From: Candidatus Shapirobacteria bacterium
Lineage (GTDB): Bacteria; Patescibacteriota; Microgenomatia; UBA12405
Assembly: GCA_016188545.1 (NCBI GenBank)
Contig: JACPHO010000004.1
Span: 1 to 41,585 of the forward strand
Direction: 5' to 3'
DNA length: 41,585 nucleotides
The notes beneath the pieces are model-generated. The model had not been told where the DNA came from. It saw only the letters and a program-made list of their open reading frames with translations, and searched no databases. The position numbers were made by a program, and so were the translations under genes. This document shows, piece after piece, positions 591 through 15,235 of this stretch (positions are counted from its first letter, which is position 1; each line of letters begins with the position of its first letter).

Positions 591-839
591 TTACTTCGAT
601 AACAATAAGTTATGCTTAATAAGGAAAGATCTTCCTGATGAGGTTTTTAGGTATTGTTCGAATTCAAATGCTGTGTGTTTGTTTTGAAATGCGAAATATG
701 CCAAAAGGTTTATGGGTCGTCTGTGTGAGGTTGCCTTTACATATCCATTTTGATGGCGGCGGAATCTTTCTTTCAAATCATTTGTGCGGCCAAGATAGGT
801 TTTATTGTCACTACACTTAAGAAAATACACATAGTACAC
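591..839 (-). CDS. GIY-YIG nuclease-superfamily protein (YhbQ/UPF0213 type)
   Basis: 82 residues, the normal size for a stand-alone GIY-YIG domain. It opens MYYVYFLKC, the variant GIY strand, followed by KTYLGRTNDLKERFRRH, containing the YIG-equivalent YLG and the conserved Arg. A Glu near residue 59 (FEFEQYLK) matches the metal-binding Glu, and the family's KTSSGR.FL ending is present. The family is implicated in DNA repair or nucleic-acid cleavage, but this member's substrate is unknown. It is convergent with the SNase remnant (9-bp gap). A -10-like TATAAA lies about 13 nt before the ATG. Confidence 0.92.
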   Translation of the reverse strand: MYYVYFLKCSDNKTYLGRTNDLKERFRRHQNGYVKATSHRRPINLLAYFAFQNKHTAFEFEQYLKTSSGRSFLIKHNLLLSK

Positions 840-1619: not shown

Positions 1620-3623
1620 TTAATTGATTAGACTGCTAAATTCAGCCTCGTTAATAATTTTTGTCTCGAATTTTTTGGCATTAATAAATTTGCTGGAGCT
1701 GGATTCAGTTTCGTTTGTAATTAAATAATTAGTATTTTTGGAGACATTGCTGTGAACCTGACCACCTTGGGAAATTATGATATCTTCCAATTCTTTGCGA
1801 GGACGACTGAGGGTACCGGTGATACAAAAGGATAGGCCGAAAAATGCCAAATTTTTAATTTCTAATTTCAAATTAACATTTGAAAGAATTGATTCGATCC
1901 AAGAACGGCGTAGATTGATACCGGCAATAATTTTTTCAGCTAGAGTTTGCTGGAAGCCTTTGATGGATAAAAGATCATCGACAGTTAATGAGAGTAACTT
2001 TTGTGGAGTGTCGAAACCGGCATTAATGAGTTGGAGAATTCGTTTTTGGGAAAAGTTGGGTATGATGGACGCGTCAAACACTTCGACGATACTTAAGATT
2101 CTTTTTTTATCAATCTGATGAATGATGTTTTTAGCTGATTTTTCCCCTAAGTTATCCAAGTCTTTGATATTGGACACAGTTAGTTTATAAAAATCACCAG
2201 GGAGCCTAATTCGATTGACTTGGTAGAGCTTGGTGATGGTTTTTTCTGATAATCCAAGAATTTCCAGGGTGTCGCAGAATAGCCTGAGACTGCCGATAAT
2301 TTGAGGTAAACAATTTTGAGTATTGGGACATTTGAGAAACTTTTCTTCTTTGACTAATAGTGTGTGACAGGAGGGGCAGGTTTTGGGAAAATCTAGGTGT
2401 CCAGAATTAACCTTAGTAACTACTTTTTCAATGTGAGGAATTACATCTCCGCGTCGGCTGATTTGGACAACGTCACCGATATTTAACCCCATTTTTTGAA
2501 TAAGATCGTAGTTGGCCAGGGAGGCAAAAGTAACAATGGCACCAGAAAGTTCAATTGGTTCTACCTCTGCTACCGGAGTAATGGTGCCCATGGGGCCGAC
2601 TTGCCAGACTACTTCTTTGACTGTTGTCTGATTGTCCGAGGCGGGAAACTTGTAGGCGACTTGGAATTTGGGGCGGTTGTTGAGTGAACCTAAACTATTG
2701 GCGATATTTAGGTCGTTGATTTTGATAACCAAGCCGTCAATCTCATAAGGATAGCTAAGACGATCTTCGTCTAGAAATTTTTGATAAATTGATTCGATCT
2801 CTTCAAACTGGGTGCAAAGATGTGACTCTACTGTGGTAAATCCTAGGGACTGAAGTAGATCAATTTTTTCCTGCTCGGTGTTTACCGAAGCCATGATATC
2901 AACGGCATAGAGGGAACAATATTCGGAATACTTTGAATCAAGGCGTTGAGAAAGACCAGAGGCGGCATTGCGGGGGTTGGAATAAAACTCTCCGCTTTCA
3001 ATCTCCCCCTCCGACTGTTGTCGGAGACCCCTCTTTGACAAGAAGGGTAAGGTACTTTTTTGGACTTTCTGGTTTAATTTGCCAAAATCAGCTTTAGTAA
3101 CAACTATCTCACAACGGACGGAGCCACTAAAGCCTTTGGGGTTAGCGACAAAGTTTTTCATTTTGACGACATTTTGGGTGATAATATCGCCGATTTTACC
3201 GTCGCCTCGGGTAATGGCATCGATTAGTTGACCATTTTTGTATTCTATTTCCAGAGAGATGCCATCACATTTGGGTTGGACAACGTAAGATATGCTATGC
3301 ATATCAACGTTGCTGCCTGCGGCGCTTTTTTTTAATTCGAAATAGTGAATTAAGTTGGCAAAAGTATTGACCTTGTTTTGAGAAGACATGGGGTGGGTGT
3401 GATTCTTTTTAGACCAGCCGGTATCAAAATTTTCGTGACCGACTTTGCTAAAAATTCGGTGGTGGGGAGATTTTTGACGGAGAATTTCTTCAAGAGTGTC
3501 GTAGGTGTGGTCGTCCATTATTGGCTTACCACTAGTGTAGTAGGCTTTTTTGGCGGTGATGAGAAGCTCGCCGAGGGATTCGGGAGATTTATTTTCGATA
3601 TCAAGTGATTCTAAAGTCAACAT
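1620..3623 (-). CDS. ligA: NAD+-dependent DNA ligase LigA
   Basis: Seals nicks using NAD+ in replication and repair. Order of parts: Ia domain (MDDHTYDTLE), adenylation domain with KCDG nucleophile motif (Lys about 118 from this start), NPRNAASG, OB-fold, Cys4 zinc finger (CPSC ... CPNTQNC), helix-hairpin-helix repeats and a C-terminal BRCT domain (FCITGTL ... NTNYLIT). The start at 3623 (667 aa) is preferred to an in-frame ATG at 3662 because a TATAAT lies 6 nt before it, as at other genes here, and the extra 13 residues are not family-like. Two oddities: about 18 extra residues before NPRNAASG are encoded by a dispersed repeat (2996-3052), and the linker before BRCT is encoded by an AT-rich iterated repeat (1850-1882). 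Confidence 0.98.
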   Translation of the reverse strand: MLTLESLDIENKSPESLGELLITAKKAYYTSGKPIMDDHTYDTLEEILRQKSPHHRIFSKVGHENFDTGWSKKNHTHPMSSQNKVNTFANLIHYFELKKSAAGSNVDMHSISYVVQPKCDGISLEIEYKNGQLIDAITRGDGKIGDIITQNVVKMKNFVANPKGFSGSVRCEIVVTKADFGKLNQKVQKSTLPFLSKRGLRQQSEGEIESGEFYSNPRNAASGLSQRLDSKYSEYCSLYAVDIMASVNTEQEKIDLLQSLGFTTVESHLCTQFEEIESIYQKFLDEDRLSYPYEIDGLVIKINDLNIANSLGSLNNRPKFQVAYKFPASDNQTTVKEVVWQVGPMGTITPVAEVEPIELSGAIVTFASLANYDLIQKMGLNIGDVVQISRRGDVIPHIEKVVTKVNSGHLDFPKTCPSCHTLLVKEEKFLKCPNTQNCLPQIIGSLRLFCDTLEILGLSEKTITKLYQVNRIRLPGDFYKLTVSNIKDLDNLGEKSAKNIIHQIDKKRILSIVEVFDASIIPNFSQKRILQLINAGFDTPQKLLSLTVDDLLSIKGFQQTLAEKIIAGINLRRSWIESILSNVNLKLEIKNLAFFGLSFCITGTLSRPRKELEDIIISQGGQVHSNVSKNTNYLITNETESSSSKFINAKKFETKIINEAEFSSLIN
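1850..1882. repeat. AT-rich iterated micro-repeat inside ligA
   Basis: A run of reiterated AATTT/CTAATTT/CAAATT words lies within ligA at the junction of the last helix-hairpin-helix and the BRCT domain, and is translated there as a Lys/Leu/Glu/Ile-rich linker. The same word family occurs between genes at 5810-5878, 24888-24925 and 36320-36348, and inside pheS. Confidence 0.6.
2996..3052. repeat. Dispersed TTTGACAAG repeat, expanded copy inside ligA
   Basis: It starts CTTTCAATC, goes on through a C-rich block, a perfect 7-bp hairpin (CTCCGAC-TGTT-GTCGGAG, 3009-3026) and CCCCTCTTTGACAAG, and ends AAGGGTAA. It matches, block by block, the inverted repeats at 3671-3708 and 4099-4140 around the DUF559 gene, with the hairpin as an extra insert. 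On the minus strand it encodes LPFLSKRG...SEGEIE within LigA and keeps the frame. Confidence 0.8.
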
Positions 3624-3629
3624 CGAGTA

Positions 3630-3635
3630 ATTATA
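3630..3635 (-). promoter_or_regulatory. -10 element of ligA
   Basis: TATAAT on the minus strand lies 6 nt before the ATG at 3623. This spacing puts the transcription start at or next to the start codon, and it decides the start against the upstream ATG at 3662. Confidence 0.55.
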
Positions 3636-3670
3636 TCTCAACCCACCCCCTGTATTTTCCATTAACTATA

Positions 3671-4140
3671 TTTTCAATCCCCCTCAGTCCCCCTTTGACA
3701 AGGGGGAAGTAAAGGCAGAATATGTGTAGTGGGAAATATTGTTGATGATGCCATTCATAGTGAGCGAGGTGTGATTAGGTATTGGTCAGAGCTTAGAGAT
3801 GTTGCAAGGGTGAACAGGAAAAACCCGACTAAAGCTGAAGAAAAGTTGTGGATTGAGATACTAAAGAATAAGCAAACTGGTTATTTATTTTTAAGACAGA
3901 AGCCGATTTATAGATTTATTGCTGACTTTTATTGTTCTGAATTGAGTTTAATTATTGAAGTGGATGGTGATTCTCATGACAATAAAAAAGGAACAGATAA
4001 ATTGAGAGATCAGTGGTTGGAATGTATTGGTATAAAGACAATTAGATTTACTAATAAAGAGGTATTGGAAAACATAGAATTAGTTATAGAAAAGTTGATT
4101 CCCCTCCTTGTCAAAGGAGGGGTTAGGGGTGGATTGAAAA
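3671..4140. mobile_element. DUF559 nuclease gene framed by about 40-bp inverted repeats
   Basis: Left arm 3671-3708 and right arm 4099-4140 are inverted copies. Both start from the outside with TTTTCAATCC (10/10 identical), then a C-rich block, then TTTGACAAGG (10/10) and a G-run ending GGGGAA. Each arm also holds its own hairpin: TCCCCCTT-TGAC-AAGGGGGA on the left and CCCCTCCTT-GTCA-AAGGAGGGG on the right. The enclosed segment is essentially the DUF559 coding sequence, which reads through the right arm and stops 20 nt beyond it. No target-site duplication is obvious. That it moves is inference; that the arms are related is seen directly. Confidence 0.6.
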
Positions 4141-4160
4141 GTAGGATGGGTCAAGTATAA
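3729..4160 (+). CDS. DUF559 (Vsr/PD-(D/E)xK-like) endonuclease-domain protein
   Basis: 143 residues from a GTG start. The core begins [12 protein letters not shown], then [16 protein letters not shown] and [10 protein letters not shown], and ends [12 protein letters not shown]. This is the DUF559 fold, related to very-short-patch-repair endonucleases, with the acidic pair in IADFYC and the E-x-D of IIEVDG as likely metal ligands. The C-terminal tail [13 protein letters not shown] is encoded by the right inverted repeat, so the gene and the repeat are physically fused. The first about 25 residues are not family-like and a later start is possible. The product's target is unknown; a role in moving the flanking repeat is a hypothesis only. 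Confidence 0.85.
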
Positions 4161-5682: not shown

Positions 5683-5690
5683 CTTAGGTC

Positions 5691-5699
5691 ATTATAACA
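5691..5699 (-). promoter_or_regulatory. Extended -10 of the Fic gene
   Basis: TGTTATAAT on the minus strand, 8 nt before the ATG at 5682. The TGn extension plus a consensus hexamer makes a strong -35-independent promoter; the mRNA would be leaderless. Confidence 0.65.
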
Positions 5700-5737
5700 C
5701 TTTTTATAAATTTCAATGAGGGGAAAATGCGGGGAAT

Positions 5738-5878
5738 ACGATAAACGTAAAACGTAATACGATAAACGAGAAATAATAAGAGAGAAACGAAATGTGTAAT
5801 TGGTAATTTGTAACTAGTAACTAGAATAAAACAAAATAAATAGTAATTAGAAATTAGTAACTGGTAACTAGAATAAAA
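5738..5878. repeat. AT-rich iterated filler between the Fic gene and holB
   Basis: No gene is visible. The sequence is built of decayed short reiterations: (A)ACGTAATACGATAAACG words near 5740-5770, then GTAACTAGAATAAAAC occurring near 5815 and again near 5867, with AATTAGAAATTAGTAA in between. Similar filler occurs at several other gaps in this window. Confidence 0.6.
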
Positions 5879-6493
5879 CTAGGAAAGCATTAGAAAATCC
5901 AGGGCGGTTTTGGGATCGACGTTGGCTTTGATGAGGTTTATCGACTTAATAATTTTTTTAATCATTTGATGGTTGGCAATTGTTGGTGAGGAAACAAGTT
6001 TGGCTTGGGAGATGGACAGTTGTGCTTCTAGAAATAAAGTAGTGTTGATTTTGTCTGTGGCTAATTCTTGAGACATTAGTAATTTGTTTTCGATGGCCTG
6101 AGGAACCACTAATGGAGGACCTTTGTCAGTGGCATCAGGCTGGAAACGGATTTGGTGACACCGAGAAATAATAGTTGGTAGAAGGGCAAGGGGTCGGTTG
6201 GTGGTGAGAATAAAATAGTTGCCTGCTCCTGGCTCCTCCAGATTTTTTAGTAGCGCATTTTGGGATTCTGCATTCAGTTTTTCGGCATCATTTATCAGAA
6301 TTACTTTCGAAGAGTGAGAAAAGGGTTTGTTGGCCAGGAACTTGGTAGTCGAGCGAATACTGTTGATGTTGTATTCGGTAACTTCAAGAATATCGGGGTT
6401 GTTTTGGATTTGTTGGTGACCAAGTGAAGATAGCAGGTCATTTAAATCACCTTGGGAACCATGGATTACTAATGTAGATGGAAAAATCTTCAT
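5879..6493 (-). CDS. holB: DNA polymerase III subunit delta'-like (HolB) clamp-loader protein
   Basis: 204 residues. It has the AAA+ delta' layout: VIHGSQG at the P-loop position but without the GKT residues, as expected of the ATPase-dead delta'; VILINDAEKLN as the Walker-B-like strand; NALLKNLEEPG; and the sensor/SRC motif IISRCHQIRF. It is much shorter than the E. coli protein (334) because most of the C-terminal collar domain is absent. The start is set by a TATAAT 8 nt upstream. It is divergent from pilB with a 24-bp gap. Confidence 0.88.
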   Translation of the reverse strand: MKIFPSTLVIHGSQGDLNDLLSSLGHQQIQNNPDILEVTEYNINSIRSTTKFLANKPFSHSSKVILINDAEKLNAESQNALLKNLEEPGAGNYFILTTNRPLALLPTIISRCHQIRFQPDATDKGPPLVVPQAIENKLLMSQELATDKINTTLFLEAQLSISQAKLVSSPTIANHQMIKKIIKSINLIKANVDPKTALDFLMLS

Positions 6494-10611: not shown

Positions 10612-11310
10612 ATGAAAAATATAAATGTGGCCATGCCTACCGGCAGGCAAGGTTTTACCTTGGTTGAATTACTAATCGTCATTGCTCTGATTGCAATTTT
10701 GTCGGTGGCTGTATTGGCAACTATCAATCCAATTGAGCAATCAAACAAGGCAAAGGATGCCACTGTTCAGAATGATGCGGCTGAAGTGTTGAATGCATAT
10801 GAACGTTATTATGCTGCGCAAGCATCATATCCTTGGGTTGATCTTTCAGGTGCCGCATTAACCGTCGACTCTGCGGCATTTATGAATAGTAGTCAGATTG
10901 GCTTTGGACTGTGTGCCTCAAATGTGGTTGGGGCTACTTATTCAAGTAGTTGCTCCCCTAGAAACTCACAGGGCTTGCTTTTGAGTACAACTGAGCTTAA
11001 AGATTCATTTTTAGAGAAGAATTATACTAAATTTCCAACTAATGTAGCTAACCCACCAGCATTTACTGACATGATTTATACCGTTAAAGATCCAGTAGCC
11101 AATGGAAACTCAATCCATGTCTGTTTTATTCCAAAGGCCAAGGCAAATCGCACAGTAAATTCTAAACTTAAATTGTTGGCACTTGATGTTAACAATGTTC
11201 CAACAACTTACGGGGATGCAGATGTTTCAGATGCCACACAATTTTCAAATGGTTATGCGGTGTGGACGTTCACCACCGGGGCTACCTCGATGTTTAAGTG
11301 TGTACCCTAG
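10612..11310 (+). CDS. Type IV pilin-like protein (candidate major pilin)
   Basis: 232 residues. Class III leader with prepilin cleavage at G/FTLVELL and Glu at +5, then a hydrophobic helix to about residue 40 and a globular domain with paired Cys. Its position right after pilC and before pilD makes it the best candidate for the main pilin, but the size is large for one. The leader is MKNINVAMPTGRQ; its DNA (10632-10650) contains the palindromic word GCCTACCGGCAGGC, a motif that is typically dispersed in genomes, so the leader seems partly built from a repeat. Translation could also start at the second ATG (10633). Confidence 0.9.
   Translation: MKNINVAMPTGRQGFTLVELLIVIALIAILSVAVLATINPIEQSNKAKDATVQNDAAEVLNAYERYYAAQASYPWVDLSGAALTVDSAAFMNSSQIGFGLCASNVVGATYSSSCSPRNSQGLLLSTTELKDSFLEKNYTKFPTNVANPPAFTDMIYTVKDPVANGNSIHVCFIPKAKANRTVNSKLKLLALDVNNVPTTYGDADVSDATQFSNGYAVWTFTTGATSMFKCVP
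10633..10650. repeat. GCCTACCGGCAGGC palindromic word in the pilin leader
   Basis: The 14-bp word is a near-perfect inverted repeat (GCCT.CCGG.AGGC) and much more GC-rich than its surroundings. It encodes the residues MPTGRQ just before the prepilin cleavage site. Confidence 0.4.
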
Positions 11311-11365
11311 TATTGTAAGCAGTATAATAATGTGGGATTCTTTGTCACAGTAAGGAATTTATTGC

Positions 11366-11374
11366 TGTTAGAAT
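11366..11374 (+). promoter_or_regulatory. Extended -10 of pilD
   Basis: TGTTAGAAT, 5 nt before the ATG at 11380, in the 69-bp gap after the pilin. It would give pilD and the following prepilin genes a leaderless transcript separate from pilB-T-C. Confidence 0.5.
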
Positions 11375-11379
11375 AATTT

Positions 11380-12162
11380 ATGGAGTTGTATTTGACGGCA
11401 GTATTTTTTCTAGTTGGATTGTGTGGGGGAAGTTTTGTTAATATGCTTTTGTATCGAACAGAAGTCAGATATAAAATTCAAAAGAAAAAAGTAAAAAGTA
11501 AAAACGAAAGTAGAAGTTTCTGTGATTTTTGCGGAGAGCAGCTTAGATGGTTTGAAAACATCCCAGTAGCTTCCTGGGTGATATTAAAAGGTAGGAGTCG
11601 ATGTTGCAACAAACGACTCCCCCGCCTGTATCCGACAGTAGAAATGACTGTAGGTGTTTTGTTTGCATATATTATTTATCATTTATCATTTATCATTGAT
11701 TGGAACCTGCCAATTTATTTGATAATAGTGTCTCTGTTGGTGTTTTCAGCGGTATTTGATTGGAAATATATGATCTTACCGGATTTTTCAACATATATTT
11801 TAATTGGTTGTGCTGGATTGCTTTGGTTCCTCAACAATTTTGGCGACTATAATTTTATTTTTGCTGGTTTGGGAGCTTTTTTGTTTTTATTGATACTTCA
11901 TCTGGCTACAAAAGGACAGGGAATGGGTATGGGTGATGTAAAATATGTTTTTTTTATGGGATTATTGTTAGGCTTAACTAGGACAGTACTGGCATTTTAT
12001 TTGGCATTTGTAGTTGGAGCATTAGTTGGGTTGGTGCTGATTATTTTTTATAAAAAAAATAAAAAAAGTCGCATACCATTTGGACCATATTTGATTATGG
12101 CGACACTGGTTGGTTGGTTTTGGGGGGAGGGCATATTATTATATTTGTATAAATGGTTTTAA
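11380..12162 (+). CDS. pilD: Prepilin peptidase PilD (A24 family)
   Basis: Membrane aspartic protease that cleaves the leaders of all pilins in this locus and may N-methylate them. 260 residues: GGSFVNMLLYR near the N-terminus, a zinc module (CDFC at about 48-51 and a CC pair at about 73; the usual second CxxC is degenerate), the first catalytic Asp in FDWKYMILPD, the second in GMGMGDVKY, and about seven membrane segments. The loop before CDFC is lengthened by an A-rich repeat (YKIQKKKVKSKN), and YIIYHLSFII is encoded by reiterated TTATCATT words. The end overlaps the next pilin by 10 bp. Confidence 0.96.
   Translation: MELYLTAVFFLVGLCGGSFVNMLLYRTEVRYKIQKKKVKSKNESRSFCDFCGEQLRWFENIPVASWVILKGRSRCCNKRLPRLYPTVEMTVGVLFAYIIYHLSFIIDWNLPIYLIIVSLLVFSAVFDWKYMILPDFSTYILIGCAGLLWFLNNFGDYNFIFAGLGAFLFLLILHLATKGQGMGMGDVKYVFFMGLLLGLTRTVLAFYLAFVVGALVGLVLIIFYKKNKKSRIPFGPYLIMATLVGWFWGEGILLYLYKWF
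11470..11510. repeat. A-rich micro-repeat inside pilD
   Basis: ATAAAATTCAAAAGAAAAAA followed by GTAAAAAGTAAAAA is the same word series as the non-coding spacer before pilT, yet here it is in frame within the zinc-module loop of pilD. A second in-frame reiteration, (TTATCAT)x3, is at 11672-11696. Confidence 0.6.
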
Positions 12163-12821
12163 ATTGGAGTAAGAGAGGTTTTACATTAATCGAATTGATG
12201 ATAGTAATGATGTTGATTGGTCTGATGGCACTAATTTTAGTGATGGCTCTTAACCCCGGGGTGATAGTTGATAAAGGAAATGATTCTCAAAGAAAGAAAG
12301 ATTTAGGTCGGATCAGGATTGCCTTTGAGGAGTATTTTAATGATAAGAAGTGTTATCCAAGTCAGGTATTGATAGATGGATTAGAGTGTGAAAAAAATGG
12401 TTTTAAACCTTGGTTATCAAACTGGCCATGTGATCCAAATGGTCAAAAATATTATGTGATGACAGATGATTCTAGTTGTCCGCGATCGTATAGAATACTA
12501 ACGAACCTGAAAAATCGTCAGGACCCAGTGATTCCTAGTGGATGGTATAGCCAAAATTCTAGTTCGAAATTTGGCGATGGTACAGTAACGATAAATGATG
12601 TCAATTATGGTATCTCAAGTCAAAACGTGTCCTGGTATGAAGAGATGGTACCTCCACATTGTTACACTTCCTTTAAAGGCTGTTACCTGATTCCCGGTTT
12701 AGGAAGGTGTAATGCGCTACCACCAGGAGAACAACATGTTGGAGCTTATTTACATCCAGATTGTATGCCAGAGTGTCAGGTTAGCTGTTGTGAAGACGGT
12801 CAGATTTGTGTTTTGCCTTAG
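12153..12821 (+). CDS. Prepilin-like protein
   Basis: 222 residues starting MVLNWSKRG/FTLIELMIVMM, a clear type III prepilin leader with Glu at +5. The C-terminal about 70 residues are unusually Cys-rich (about 10 Cys), suggesting a disulfide-stabilised head exposed at the surface. The start lies inside the last codons of pilD. It is more likely a minor or specialised pilin than the major subunit. Confidence 0.88.
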   Translation: MVLNWSKRGFTLIELMIVMMLIGLMALILVMALNPGVIVDKGNDSQRKKDLGRIRIAFEEYFNDKKCYPSQVLIDGLECEKNGFKPWLSNWPCDPNGQKYYVMTDDSSCPRSYRILTNLKNRQDPVIPSGWYSQNSSSKFGDGTVTINDVNYGISSQNVSWYEEMVPPHCYTSFKGCYLIPGLGRCNALPPGEQHVGAYLHPDCMPECQVSCCEDGQICVLP

Positions 12822-12829
12822 GAGTGGTT

Positions 12830-13333
12830 ATGATTAGGTTAGTGAAAAGACAAGGATTTACATTGATTGAGTTGATGGTAGTAATTACTATAATCTCCTT
12901 ATTAACGGTCGTGACCGTATCTCAATTTCAGACTGCCAAAAAAAAAGCCAATGATGTGGCTCGTAAAGGTGACATCAATGCTGTTTCAAAGGCATTACAG
13001 ATGTATTTTAATGATTATGGTTATTTCCCGATGGAGTCGGAAATTAATTGGGGGGGGACATTTGAAGATTCCTCAGCCAGTCCAGCTTATGTTTATATGA
13101 AAAAAATGCCGAGAGAAAATTATTTGCCGACAAAACCATATTGCTATAAAGTCAGTCCGGATCAAAAGAAATATGGTTTATTTGCGCAATTAGAAAACGT
13201 GACTGACAAGGAGTGTGACCGAAATAACAACAACTCAGCCGATGATAATAATTATATGTGTGATGGTGTTGGTTATTGTTACGGGGTGGCATCACCAAAT
13301 ACAAGTTTATCTAGCAATGGTGATTTGGAGTAG
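12830..13333 (+). CDS. Prepilin-like protein
   Basis: 167 residues from the ATG at 12830, chosen over one 24 nt upstream because GGAG lies 5 nt before it and the leader MIRLVKRQG/FTLIELMVV is then of normal length. The helix is followed by KKKANDVARKGDINAVSKAL and YFNDYGYFP, the standard pseudopilin (PulG-like) continuation. The stop region overlaps the next prepilin start by 17 bp. Confidence 0.88.
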   Translation: MIRLVKRQGFTLIELMVVITIISLLTVVTVSQFQTAKKKANDVARKGDINAVSKALQMYFNDYGYFPMESEINWGGTFEDSSASPAYVYMKKMPRENYLPTKPYCYKVSPDQKKYGLFAQLENVTDKECDRNNNNSADDNNYMCDGVGYCYGVASPNTSLSSNGDLE

Positions 13334-13775
13334 ACAAAATACTGGTTTTACTTTGGTTGAGTTGTTGATTTCAATTGGTATTATGGGAACTTTGATGGCA
13401 ATTTTGTTACCAAATTTTATGGGAGCTAGAGAAAGGGCTAGGGATGCTCAAAAGATACAGGATTTAGGAACAATGAAGAACGCCCTTAGATTGTATTATA
13501 ATGATAATCAAACTTATCCAGCTGGTTCAGGTGGATCATTGGGGGTGGGGATGACTGCTTATATGAGTAGTGTGATAAATTTGGGATATACTTATGACTA
13601 TTATCAACTAGATAATGGTGATGGTTTTGTAATCTGTGTTGGGCTGGAGGCTGGAGCAGGTACTGAAGATACAACTTCTCAACAAAAGTGTGGTGTGTCA
13701 GGATTAGGGGTGGGAATTTGTGGAATGGGGGTGGGTCAGACAGGAAATAATATATTTACAGTTTGTGCTAAATAA
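13317..13775 (+). CDS. Prepilin-like protein
   Basis: 152 residues from the ATG at 13317, giving leader MVIWSRQNTG/FTLVELLIS; an ATG 102 nt upstream would add an implausible 34-residue extension inside the previous gene. It is followed by ARERARDAQKIQDLGTMKNAL and YYNDNQTYP, the pseudopilin pattern shared with its neighbours, then a Gly-rich tail. Overlap with the previous gene suggests coupled translation. Confidence 0.87.
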   Translation: MVIWSRQNTGFTLVELLISIGIMGTLMAILLPNFMGARERARDAQKIQDLGTMKNALRLYYNDNQTYPAGSGGSLGVGMTAYMSSVINLGYTYDYYQLDNGDGFVICVGLEAGAGTEDTTSQQKCGVSGLGVGICGMGVGQTGNNIFTVCAK

Positions 13776-13806
13776 GAAGAGATTTATGAATTAAGATTTA
13801 TGAAAT

Positions 13807-14226
13807 ATGAATAAAACAAAAAATGGGTTTACGCTATTTGAGCTGTTGGTGAGTATTTCGATTGTAGCGATATTGTCGGCACTGGCAATAGTTTCATTTA
13901 GTTCGGCCCAAAAGAAAGCTAGGGATTCTAGAAGGGTTCAGGATATGTCGTTGATTCAAAAGGCAGCGGAACAGTACTATATGTTAAGTTCCTCAAATTA
14001 TCCGACAACATTGAGTGTGGGAACGTCCTGGTCGGCTGGTGGACAGACGGTATTAGAGGTAATACCCCTGGATCCAAAAGGGGTTGGTTATACGGCTACC
14101 ATGAGCGTCAGTAGTTATTGTATTTGTGCATTTGTAGAAGGGACTGGTGGTAATTCAACCAATAGCGCTTGTAACTTTGTTGGTGCCGGTGCCAAGATTT
14201 ATTTTTGTGTGAAAAACCAACAATAA
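13807..14226 (+). CDS. Prepilin-like protein
   Basis: 139 residues with leader MNKTKNG/FTLFELLVSISI, then KKARDSRRVQDMSLIQKAAEQYY, again the pseudopilin N-terminal helix. The head has four Cys near the C-terminus. The 31-bp spacer before it is a reiteration of AAGATTTATGAA(T) words. The near-identical helices of this series of genes suggest tandem duplication followed by divergence of the heads. Confidence 0.87.
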   Translation: MNKTKNGFTLFELLVSISIVAILSALAIVSFSSAQKKARDSRRVQDMSLIQKAAEQYYMLSSSNYPTTLSVGTSWSAGGQTVLEVIPLDPKGVGYTATMSVSSYCICAFVEGTGGNSTNSACNFVGAGAKIYFCVKNQQ

Positions 14227-14245
14227 TCGCTTCGCGGAATAACCA

Positions 14246-14686
14246 ATGACCAATAACCAATTTTCAAATAACCAGAAAAATCAAAAGGGGTTTACACTGA
14301 TTGAGTTGATTGTGACGATGACAATAGTGGCAGTGTTGACGACAGTAGCCATGATTAGTTTTGGGGGAACCAATAAAAGGGCCAGGGATGGAAGAAGGGC
14401 CTCCGACATCCAGAAGATAGCGATTGCTTTAGAGATGGCCCGTCAAGTTGGTGGCACTTATCCAGTAGCCTCAGGTGGTCAAGCACCAGATCTGGTAAAT
14501 GGACAATATTTACAAAAGTGGCCAGATGATCCGAGTGGATATATTTACTATTACCAGAGACCAACTAATTATACTTATAGTCTAAGTTCTTATATGGAAG
14601 ATTTGGGGTCAACAAATGGCACTGGAAGCTATGGTAATAATTGTGATGCACCAGGAAATTGTAATTATCAGGTGTCTAATCCTTAG
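14246..14686 (+). CDS. Prepilin-like protein with repeat-derived leader
   Basis: 146 residues. Leader MTNNQFSNNQKNQKG/FTLIELIVTM: the Asn/Gln-rich part is encoded by reiterated CCAATGACCAATAACC-type words continuing from the spacer, so the leader appears to be built from a micro-repeat. Next come KRARDGRRASDIQKIAIAL and the DDPSGYIYYY stretch usual in PulG-like pseudopilins. It is followed by a 30-bp gap and a FimT/GspH-type prepilin. Confidence 0.87.
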   Translation: MTNNQFSNNQKNQKGFTLIELIVTMTIVAVLTTVAMISFGGTNKRARDGRRASDIQKIAIALEMARQVGGTYPVASGGQAPDLVNGQYLQKWPDDPSGYIYYYQRPTNYTYSLSSYMEDLGSTNGTGSYGNNCDAPGNCNYQVSNP

Positions 14687-14716
14687 GTTAAGAGTAAAAG
14701 AGTTTACAATAATAAT

Positions 14717-15235
14717 ATGCGACATGGATTTACACTAGTTGAGTTGATGGTGGTAATAACTATAGGAATCGTGATAACTGGTGGAGCGATGGTGTCGGTG
14801 ACAAAATATGTGGCTAAAGAAAAACTAGTTCAAGCCGCCAGTGAGGTGGTTTCGATGGTTGATCTGGCCAGAAATATGGCAATAATCAATCAAGTGACAG
14901 CTGGCTTTACCAACCTAGACTATGTGGCTGTGACCCTGACAAGTAGTGGAGTAGTTTCAGTGTTTCCGGTAAATAACATTAGTGGTGTGGGTAGTAGTTT
15001 GGTAACAAAAAAAATCGGCAGTGGAGGAATTGTTTTTAGTAGTTTAAATTTAGGTGGACTACAATTTGCTGCTGGTAGTGGAAAATTAGTAGGGAAAAAT
15101 CCAAGTCCTTCTTATCAGAGTTATCCCCTCCCTCCCACCACAAATGTGGGAATAACTATTTCGAGCACTGAAGTCAGTGAAACTCAGCAAATTATTATTA
15201 GTCCGTTTGGTGGAGTGACCAACACAAAGTTATGA
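14717..15235 (+). CDS. Minor prepilin, GspH/FimT-like
   Basis: 172 residues, leader MRHG/FTLVELMVVITIG. The region after the helix (VQAASEVVSMVDLARNMAIINQ) matches GspH/FimT minor pseudopilins rather than PulG types, and the body is a beta-rich Gly/Ser/Val domain. With the next two genes it forms the expected minor-pilin initiation set (H, I, J types). A TACAAT lies 6 nt before the ATG. The stop overlaps the next start by 4 bp (ATGA). Confidence 0.88.
   Translation: MRHGFTLVELMVVITIGIVITGGAMVSVTKYVAKEKLVQAASEVVSMVDLARNMAIINQVTAGFTNLDYVAVTLTSSGVVSVFPVNNISGVGSSLVTKKIGSGGIVFSSLNLGGLQFAAGSGKLVGKNPSPSYQSYPLPPTTNVGITISSTEVSETQQIIISPFGGVTNTKL

Follow-up and report, generated by a model that had tools for sequence, protein, structure and literature searches.

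How does a single-copy, essential gene come to hold a palindromic repeat inside its reading frame, and what could have carried the repeat there? The question arises at ligA in a 41,585-nucleotide stretch of DNA from a Candidatus Shapirobacteria bacterium (contig JACPHO010000004.1 of assembly GCA_016188545.1; hereafter the window), the gene lying next to a small nuclease gene that is itself enclosed by hairpin repeats.

A repeat within the reading frame of ligA

The gene for NAD-dependent DNA ligase, ligA, occupies positions 1620–3662 on the minus strand as an intact open reading frame of 680 amino acids, with its probable start at an internal methionine (residue 14, at about 3623). Its product contains the full set of LigA domains (Pfam) and scores above the NCBIfam cut-off for the LigA equivalog, and it is the only ligA found in the 8 contigs (981 kb) of the genome. 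A preliminary description had placed a 57-bp repeat in frame at 2996–3052, and the sequence, the open reading frame and a two-hairpin fold all confirm it: the letters of the plus strand, TTTCAATCTCCCCCTCCGACTGTTGTCGGAGACCCCTCTTTGACAAGAAGGGTAAGG, encode LPFLSKRGLRQQSEGEIE on the minus strand, and the frame continues undisturbed on both sides. As single-stranded DNA, this type-B terminal repeat, present here on its own, folds into two stacked, adjacent hairpins, with an energy of −11.8 kcal/mol for one strand and −13.6 kcal/mol for the other (z-scores against shuffled sequences, −3.1 and −3.5). An Rfam search of the region found no family.

The core hairpin, CCCCTCTT-TGAC-AAGAAGGG (about 3027–3048), has the TGAC loop that is common to the repeat arms of DUF559 nuclease genes. 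The other hairpin, CTCCGAC-TGTT-GTCGGAG (3009–3026), had been taken for an extra 18-bp piece, but it is the variable middle hairpin of many full-length arms in the repeat family, and its stem recurs in the ligA insert of L025, from the same genus (UBA2283), and in a DUF559 arm of L069. Alignment of the inserts further suggests that AATAAAACTCTCC at 2983–2995 is a putative remnant of an older, type-A repeat (compare ATAAAACCCTTC in L025, L005 and L048). Because this remnant adjoins the 57 bp, the net insert relative to short-loop relatives amounts to about 23 codons.

The corresponding stretch of the best-matching solved ligase, 1DGS, is about 19 residues shorter than that of the window LigA. 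In an AlphaFold model based on 17 sequences, the insert (residues 202–224) has pLDDT values below 50 and lies between two confident helices of the adenylation domain, which mostly scores 80–93; the insert is, in this model, a floppy surface loop just before the NPRNAASG motif.

The LigA loop among relatives

A genome search with LigA returned 28 loci, nearly all from Candidatus Shapirobacteria, and a search of the order found LigA in 30 of 43 genomes. We compared the loop that separates the LN motif from NPRNAASG. In about half of the 30 Shapirobacterial LigAs it is short (for example QISEEKYS), as the preliminary description had supposed of LigA proteins elsewhere, and the remaining loops hold either other subtypes of the same repeat superfamily or unrelated palindromes. 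The loop reads KIIKKDALPSLSKGGLRRTSEGEIENEGF in L025, VKKDTPALSREGDGEGF in L005 and IFPPLSRGGAEGGG in L029, with related peptides in L030, L007, L014, L017 and L048. The loop of L018 contains a different palindrome, GTAGGAACGCATTATAATGCGTTCCTAC, and that of L006 contains CGTCATTGCGAG... with an inverted partner; by inspection, these two palindromes resemble the GTAG and CGTC classes of REP sequences (Di Nocera et al. 2013, PMC3733652). Further repeat-like loops occur in L066, L019 and L027 (RHPEPAEG, GLDPSKVEG and SKEQSRLFPTSRPSS). The ligA frame of L027 is broken into two open reading frames, and the ligA of L012 contains a stop codon.

The presence of the repeat is patchy. At least 10 changes are needed to account for it on a quick LigA tree from which the loop was left out and in which 10 of 27 inner branches are weakly supported. 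L018 and L029 are sisters on this tree and carry different repeats; L004, sister to L025 and its closest LigA relative, is without the block. The pattern that would speak against insertion, identical residues shared by all relatives and conserved as protein, is absent. DNA identity is instead concentrated in the insert: between the window and L025 it is 91–93% in the insert and 69–72% in the flanking ligA, and L005 and L048, which belong to different genera, agree at 46 of 47 aligned insert bases (0.98) against 0.69 in the flanks (p = 2 × 10−6). Since insert identity so far exceeds flank identity, it is the repeat family, not the gene, that the inserts track, and their likeness is, as judged from these alignments, DNA-repeat similarity and not protein conservation. 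The claim that a mobile repeat is tolerated in a single-copy essential gene is supported on both counts, patchiness and excess identity.

In L025 and the window, a type-B copy (TTTCAATC ... TTTGACAAG) seems to lie between type-A remnants (ATAAAACCCTTC ...). Given this nesting, the site has probably been struck at least twice, and the inserts as a whole could reflect either repeated insertion at one place or the overwriting of an older insert. A shared ancestral insert with later sequence exchange is a possible alternative to repeated insertion.

DUF559 genes, their inverted arms and solo repeats

Just upstream of ligA lies a complete element (about 3671–4141) that consists of a left arm, TTTTCAATCCCCCTCAGTCCCCCTTTGACAAGGGGGAAG (3671–3708, plus strand), a DUF559 gene for 143 amino acids (3729–4160, plus strand; PF04480, 98.9 bits against a cut-off of 20.6) and an inverted right arm, CCTCCTTGTCAAAGGAGGGGTTAGGGGTGGATTGAAAA (4103–4141, minus strand), the arms being located by repeat scan, fold and flank alignment. 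The gene, the sole DUF559 gene of this genome, begins with GTG, although its true start may be further in, and its 3′ end runs through the right arm. Among DUF559 proteins, residues E37, E77, D79, G80, H83, D90 and R93 are invariant. The predicted structure (pLDDT 84) matches the folds of NGO0050 (3HRL), the homing endonuclease I-Bth0305I (3R3P; TM-score 0.79 by target) and, less closely, Vsr (1VSR); the sequence profile also retrieves 3R3P (E = 4 × 10−5). By profile, modelled fold and conserved acidic and histidine residues, the gene is assigned as a DUF559, Vsr-like PD-(D/E)XK nuclease. PADLOC returned weak, partial matches only.

Such genes are common in the order: 26 of 40 sampled genomes have DUF559, with 1 to 8 matches each, some of them with stop codons. 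Many of the loci share a layout in which an outer end (TTTCAATC or AAACCC, with no GTAG tag) is followed by a variable middle hairpin, a core hairpin with a TGAC loop, the gene, and then the same parts inverted. We scored the arms by local alignment of the left flank with the reverse complement of the right flank, using as controls 305 pairs of the same geometry (mean 18.8, maximum 30). The flanks of 21 of 28 DUF559 loci of the order score above all 305 controls, with the other 7 below. GIY-YIG nuclease genes, one of which adjoins another repeat in the window, served for that reason as controls and also as the second family of candidate partners; in the same genomes, only 2 of 28 GIY-YIG loci have such arms (Fisher p = 3 × 10−7 against DUF559), and we rejected them as partner genes. 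Three tandem 39-bp copies of ACAACCCGTCTTCGCTTCGCTACGACGAGGTAAATGTAA lie at 854–970, immediately upstream of a GIY-YIG gene (633–836, minus strand). A direct repeat family of the window, D1, is accounted for by seven successive genes at 10651–14779 that have a common GFTLIELLVVITI-type start (type IV pilin-like N-termini).

The arms extend beyond the order. Across the phylum, 13 of 23 DUF559 loci exceed the same threshold, as do 8 of the 12 loci scored on plasmids of other phyla (scores 35–135), namely two from Deinococcus, one from Picosynechococcus, two from Pseudanabaena and one each from Qipengyuania, Sphingomonas and Sphingobium; one of these elements separates sufB from sufC and another paaD from paaZ. 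Plasmid loci of Azospirillum, Sinorhizobium and Methylobacterium have no inverted arms above threshold, and the arm score of the Synechocystis plasmid locus is below it.

Core stems differ among arms yet stay paired: for 20 distinct stems, pairing within an arm exceeds pairing between arms at most positions. The right arms of L074 and L081 are nearly identical except for a wholesale swap of the middle hairpin that keeps the palindrome. Covariation and swap together point to selection on single-stranded structure. Element turnover, as read from the sequences, is visible at a Fic/holA-like intergenic site: the element is of type A in G024, whereas in G018 it is of type B and lies behind a residual half of a type-A arm. 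In three relatives (L088, L076 and L069) the intergenic interval beside the Fic gene contains DUF559 elements of different subtypes; the corresponding region of the window (5690–5879) is empty of a DUF559 element.

It is to these arms that the ligA repeat belongs. Nine LigA inserts, from nine genomes, match DUF559 arms beyond 100 dinucleotide shuffles, with scores against the null maximum of 50 versus 35 for the window, 63 versus 36 for L025 and 70 versus 31 for L005; the inserts of L006, L018, L013 and L028 show no arm match beyond 100 shuffles. The preliminary reading of a mobile repeat in ligA therefore stands, but it overlooked that the repeat corresponds to the end of a DUF559-nuclease element, one of which adjoins the gene. 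Derivation of the ligA copy from that neighbouring element was considered and rejected: the element's own arms score 32 against the insert, versus 50 for arms of other genomes, and the insert is common to UBA2283.

Copies outside DUF559 loci are found genome-wide. A strict repeat pattern recovered only the three window copies, and blastn together with looser type-A and type-B patterns gave the others, including three further blastn copies in this genome on contigs 4 and 8; the copy in ligA escaped a scan of the window for repeats with seed 11, and indels are the probable reason. In the 40 genomes, all compared as draft metagenome-assembled genomes (MAGs), the type-B pattern has 32 matches (0 in the control) and the type-A pattern 176 (1 in the control). 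Repeats of either type occur in 23 of 26 DUF559-positive but 1 of 14 DUF559-negative genomes, and within the family of the window's genome in 23 of 25 against 1 of 6 (p = 7 × 10−4); repeat and DUF559 copy numbers correlate (rho = 0.58), kinship being ignored in all three comparisons. In some genomes, G022 among them, a LigA insert is present and no DUF559 gene was found. G014 yields 8 matches to DUF559, of which some are partial or degraded, along with 43 type-A repeats; many of these repeats are clustered on the 39-kb contig 37.

Genes other than ligA are also affected. Repeats sit in long open reading frames at 11 of the 30 type-A loci inspected and at about six distinct sites of type B; by reading, some of these frames resemble mutM, ribonucleotide reductase, CTP synthase, rarA-like and miaA-like genes. 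In the window's own genome, valS, also an essential gene, has a second in-frame type-B copy, LKKSPLSKGDLEG (L035/L169; G000 contig 8, about 83660), that is absent from all aligned relatives, up to 85% identical. Two genomes (L232 and L250) have an in-frame type-A repeat at one and the same position of a MutM/Fpg-like gene, possibly another site of recurrence besides the LigA loop.

Mobility, its alternatives and what it may mean

We think it likely that the repeat in ligA derives, as a solo and non-autonomous copy, from the end of a small DUF559-nuclease element and was mobilised by the nuclease. A Vsr-like or homing-like DUF559 protein would cut or nick at the hairpins, and whole elements as well as single arms would then be copied to new sites, as RAYT presumably does for REPs, or as in homing. 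A repeat that entered the surface loop of LigA would survive as an in-frame copy adding only flexible, harmless peptide; LigA with the insert presumably stays active, and the loop may have been struck, or overwritten, repeatedly. We infer the driving role of the nuclease from the company that the repeats keep. Against it stand the 7 of 28 loci of the order and 4 of 12 plasmid loci whose flanks score below the inverted-repeat threshold. No target-site duplication was resolved, the best empty site being a valS relative of 85% identity. In Caulobacter, VsrA, a DUF559 protein, has been interpreted as a host mismatch-repair nuclease (PMC12907096, 2026), and mobility therefore need not extend to every DUF559 gene.

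A narrower account, which is a version of this explanation rather than its opposite, makes DUF559 a homing endonuclease: it would cleave repeat-bearing or repeat-free alleles, repair would spread the gene with its arms, and solo repeats would be targets or scars. This is a fair way short of probable, but it is a serious candidate. I-Bth0305I is the best structural match of known function, by profile and predicted fold; the type-A and type-B elements of G024 and G018 at the Fic/holA-like site, the latter behind a type-A half-arm, fit the account, as do inserts that are more alike between species than are their flanks. With EDxHD/Vsr-like homing endonucleases, the predicted window nuclease would share the fold, comparable active-site residues and a selfish mobile-gene context, but the DUF559 gene is free-standing between inverted hairpin arms, with no intron or intein, and classical homing leaves two inverted hairpin arms and hundreds of solo arms unexplained.

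It is unlikely that these are ordinary REP-like or MITE repeats moved by something else, such as a RAYT acting in trans or replication slippage, with DUF559 as a captured passenger. GTAG and CGTC REPs do lie inside the genes of many bacteria, the CGTC class without a known transposase (PMC3733652), and repeats occur in some genomes in which no DUF559 was found (G013, one match). However, the association is specific to DUF559 and not to GIY-YIG, and it recurs with different subtypes in several phyla. Furthermore, the window's genome gave no match to the Y1 transposase of the RAYT family (Y1_Tnp). A by-hand comparison places repeats in 10 of 21 genomes with Y1 and in 14 of 19 without it; the distribution of the repeats therefore does not track Y1 genes. 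The anatomy is nevertheless familiar from the REPtrons and TIRtrons of REP/RAYT systems, whose intragenic copies are often in replication and repair genes, one of them in a DNA ligase of O. terrae (PMC3733652): both have a small gene between inverted hairpin repeats and solo repeats elsewhere in the genome. The partner here is a Vsr-like PD-(D/E)XK nuclease (PF04480) instead of a Y1 HUH transposase, and its arms, which contain a variable middle hairpin, are not tagged with GTAG or CGTC. MITEs are likewise short and non-autonomous, of inverted-repeat character and dependent on the ends of a partner gene, but the ligA copy is a solo arm rather than two terminal inverted repeats with a deleted middle, and a classical transposase is missing.

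A functional LigA extension selected at the level of the protein, with only coincidental likeness to the repeats, would agree with a frame that is open in all intact copies and a constant loop position, but it is scarcely credible, and we rejected it for the patchiness of the insert and its matches in DNA: no insert is present in about half of the relatives, the inserts come from several repeat families and resemble one another more than their flanks do, the model shows no ordered structure, and the same repeat sits in valS and other genes. An assembly or binning artefact, conceivable in a draft MAG of 8 contigs (92.6% complete, 4.4% contaminated), is very improbable given the intact frame and the homologous insert at the same codons in an independent genome of the same genus (L025).

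In Rickettsia, palindromic elements (RPEs) of about 150 bp likewise lie in frame in essential or housekeeping genes of a reduced genome, where they add a peptide (PMC10969869). The window repeat resembles them as a short palindrome in frame in conserved genes, adding a peptide that homologues of LigA and ValS are without, but its family is of about 40–60 bp, with another sequence, in another phylum and with a clear partner family in DUF559; the 57-bp copy of this Patescibacterium is, by description, set apart from the Rickettsia sequence family. As in-frame palindromes of Rickettsia and intragenic REPs are known, the ligA insertion is a further case of a known kind. The searchable literature holds no mobility paper linking DUF559 with transposon, inverted or palindromic repeats; subscription literature was outside the search, and the novelty of the DUF559 link is therefore provisional. 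DUF559 has so far been a domain of unknown function or one assumed to act in mismatch repair. To our knowledge, the mover of in-frame palindromic insertions is known only for RAYT-linked families, and there mainly by inference.

With confidence that is evenly balanced, we propose that DUF559 genes with arms are widespread, undescribed minimal mobile elements, in which a nuclease of about 110–150 amino acids moves its own double-hairpin ends; that their lone ends make up many of the hairpin repeats found within and between genes in several phyla; and that the LigA loop is a recurrent landing or overwriting site. DUF559 is, beside RAYT, a second, unrelated family with the anatomy of a gene between inverted hairpins, in Patescibacteria, Deinococcus, Cyanobacteria and Alphaproteobacteria. 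If DUF559 moves the repeats, the family would gain a function, the origin of a large number of anonymous hairpin repeats would be explained, and these genomes would offer a natural experiment in how essential enzymes acquire new loops, as in LigA and ValS and, going by likeness, in MutM-, MiaA- and RarA-like proteins.
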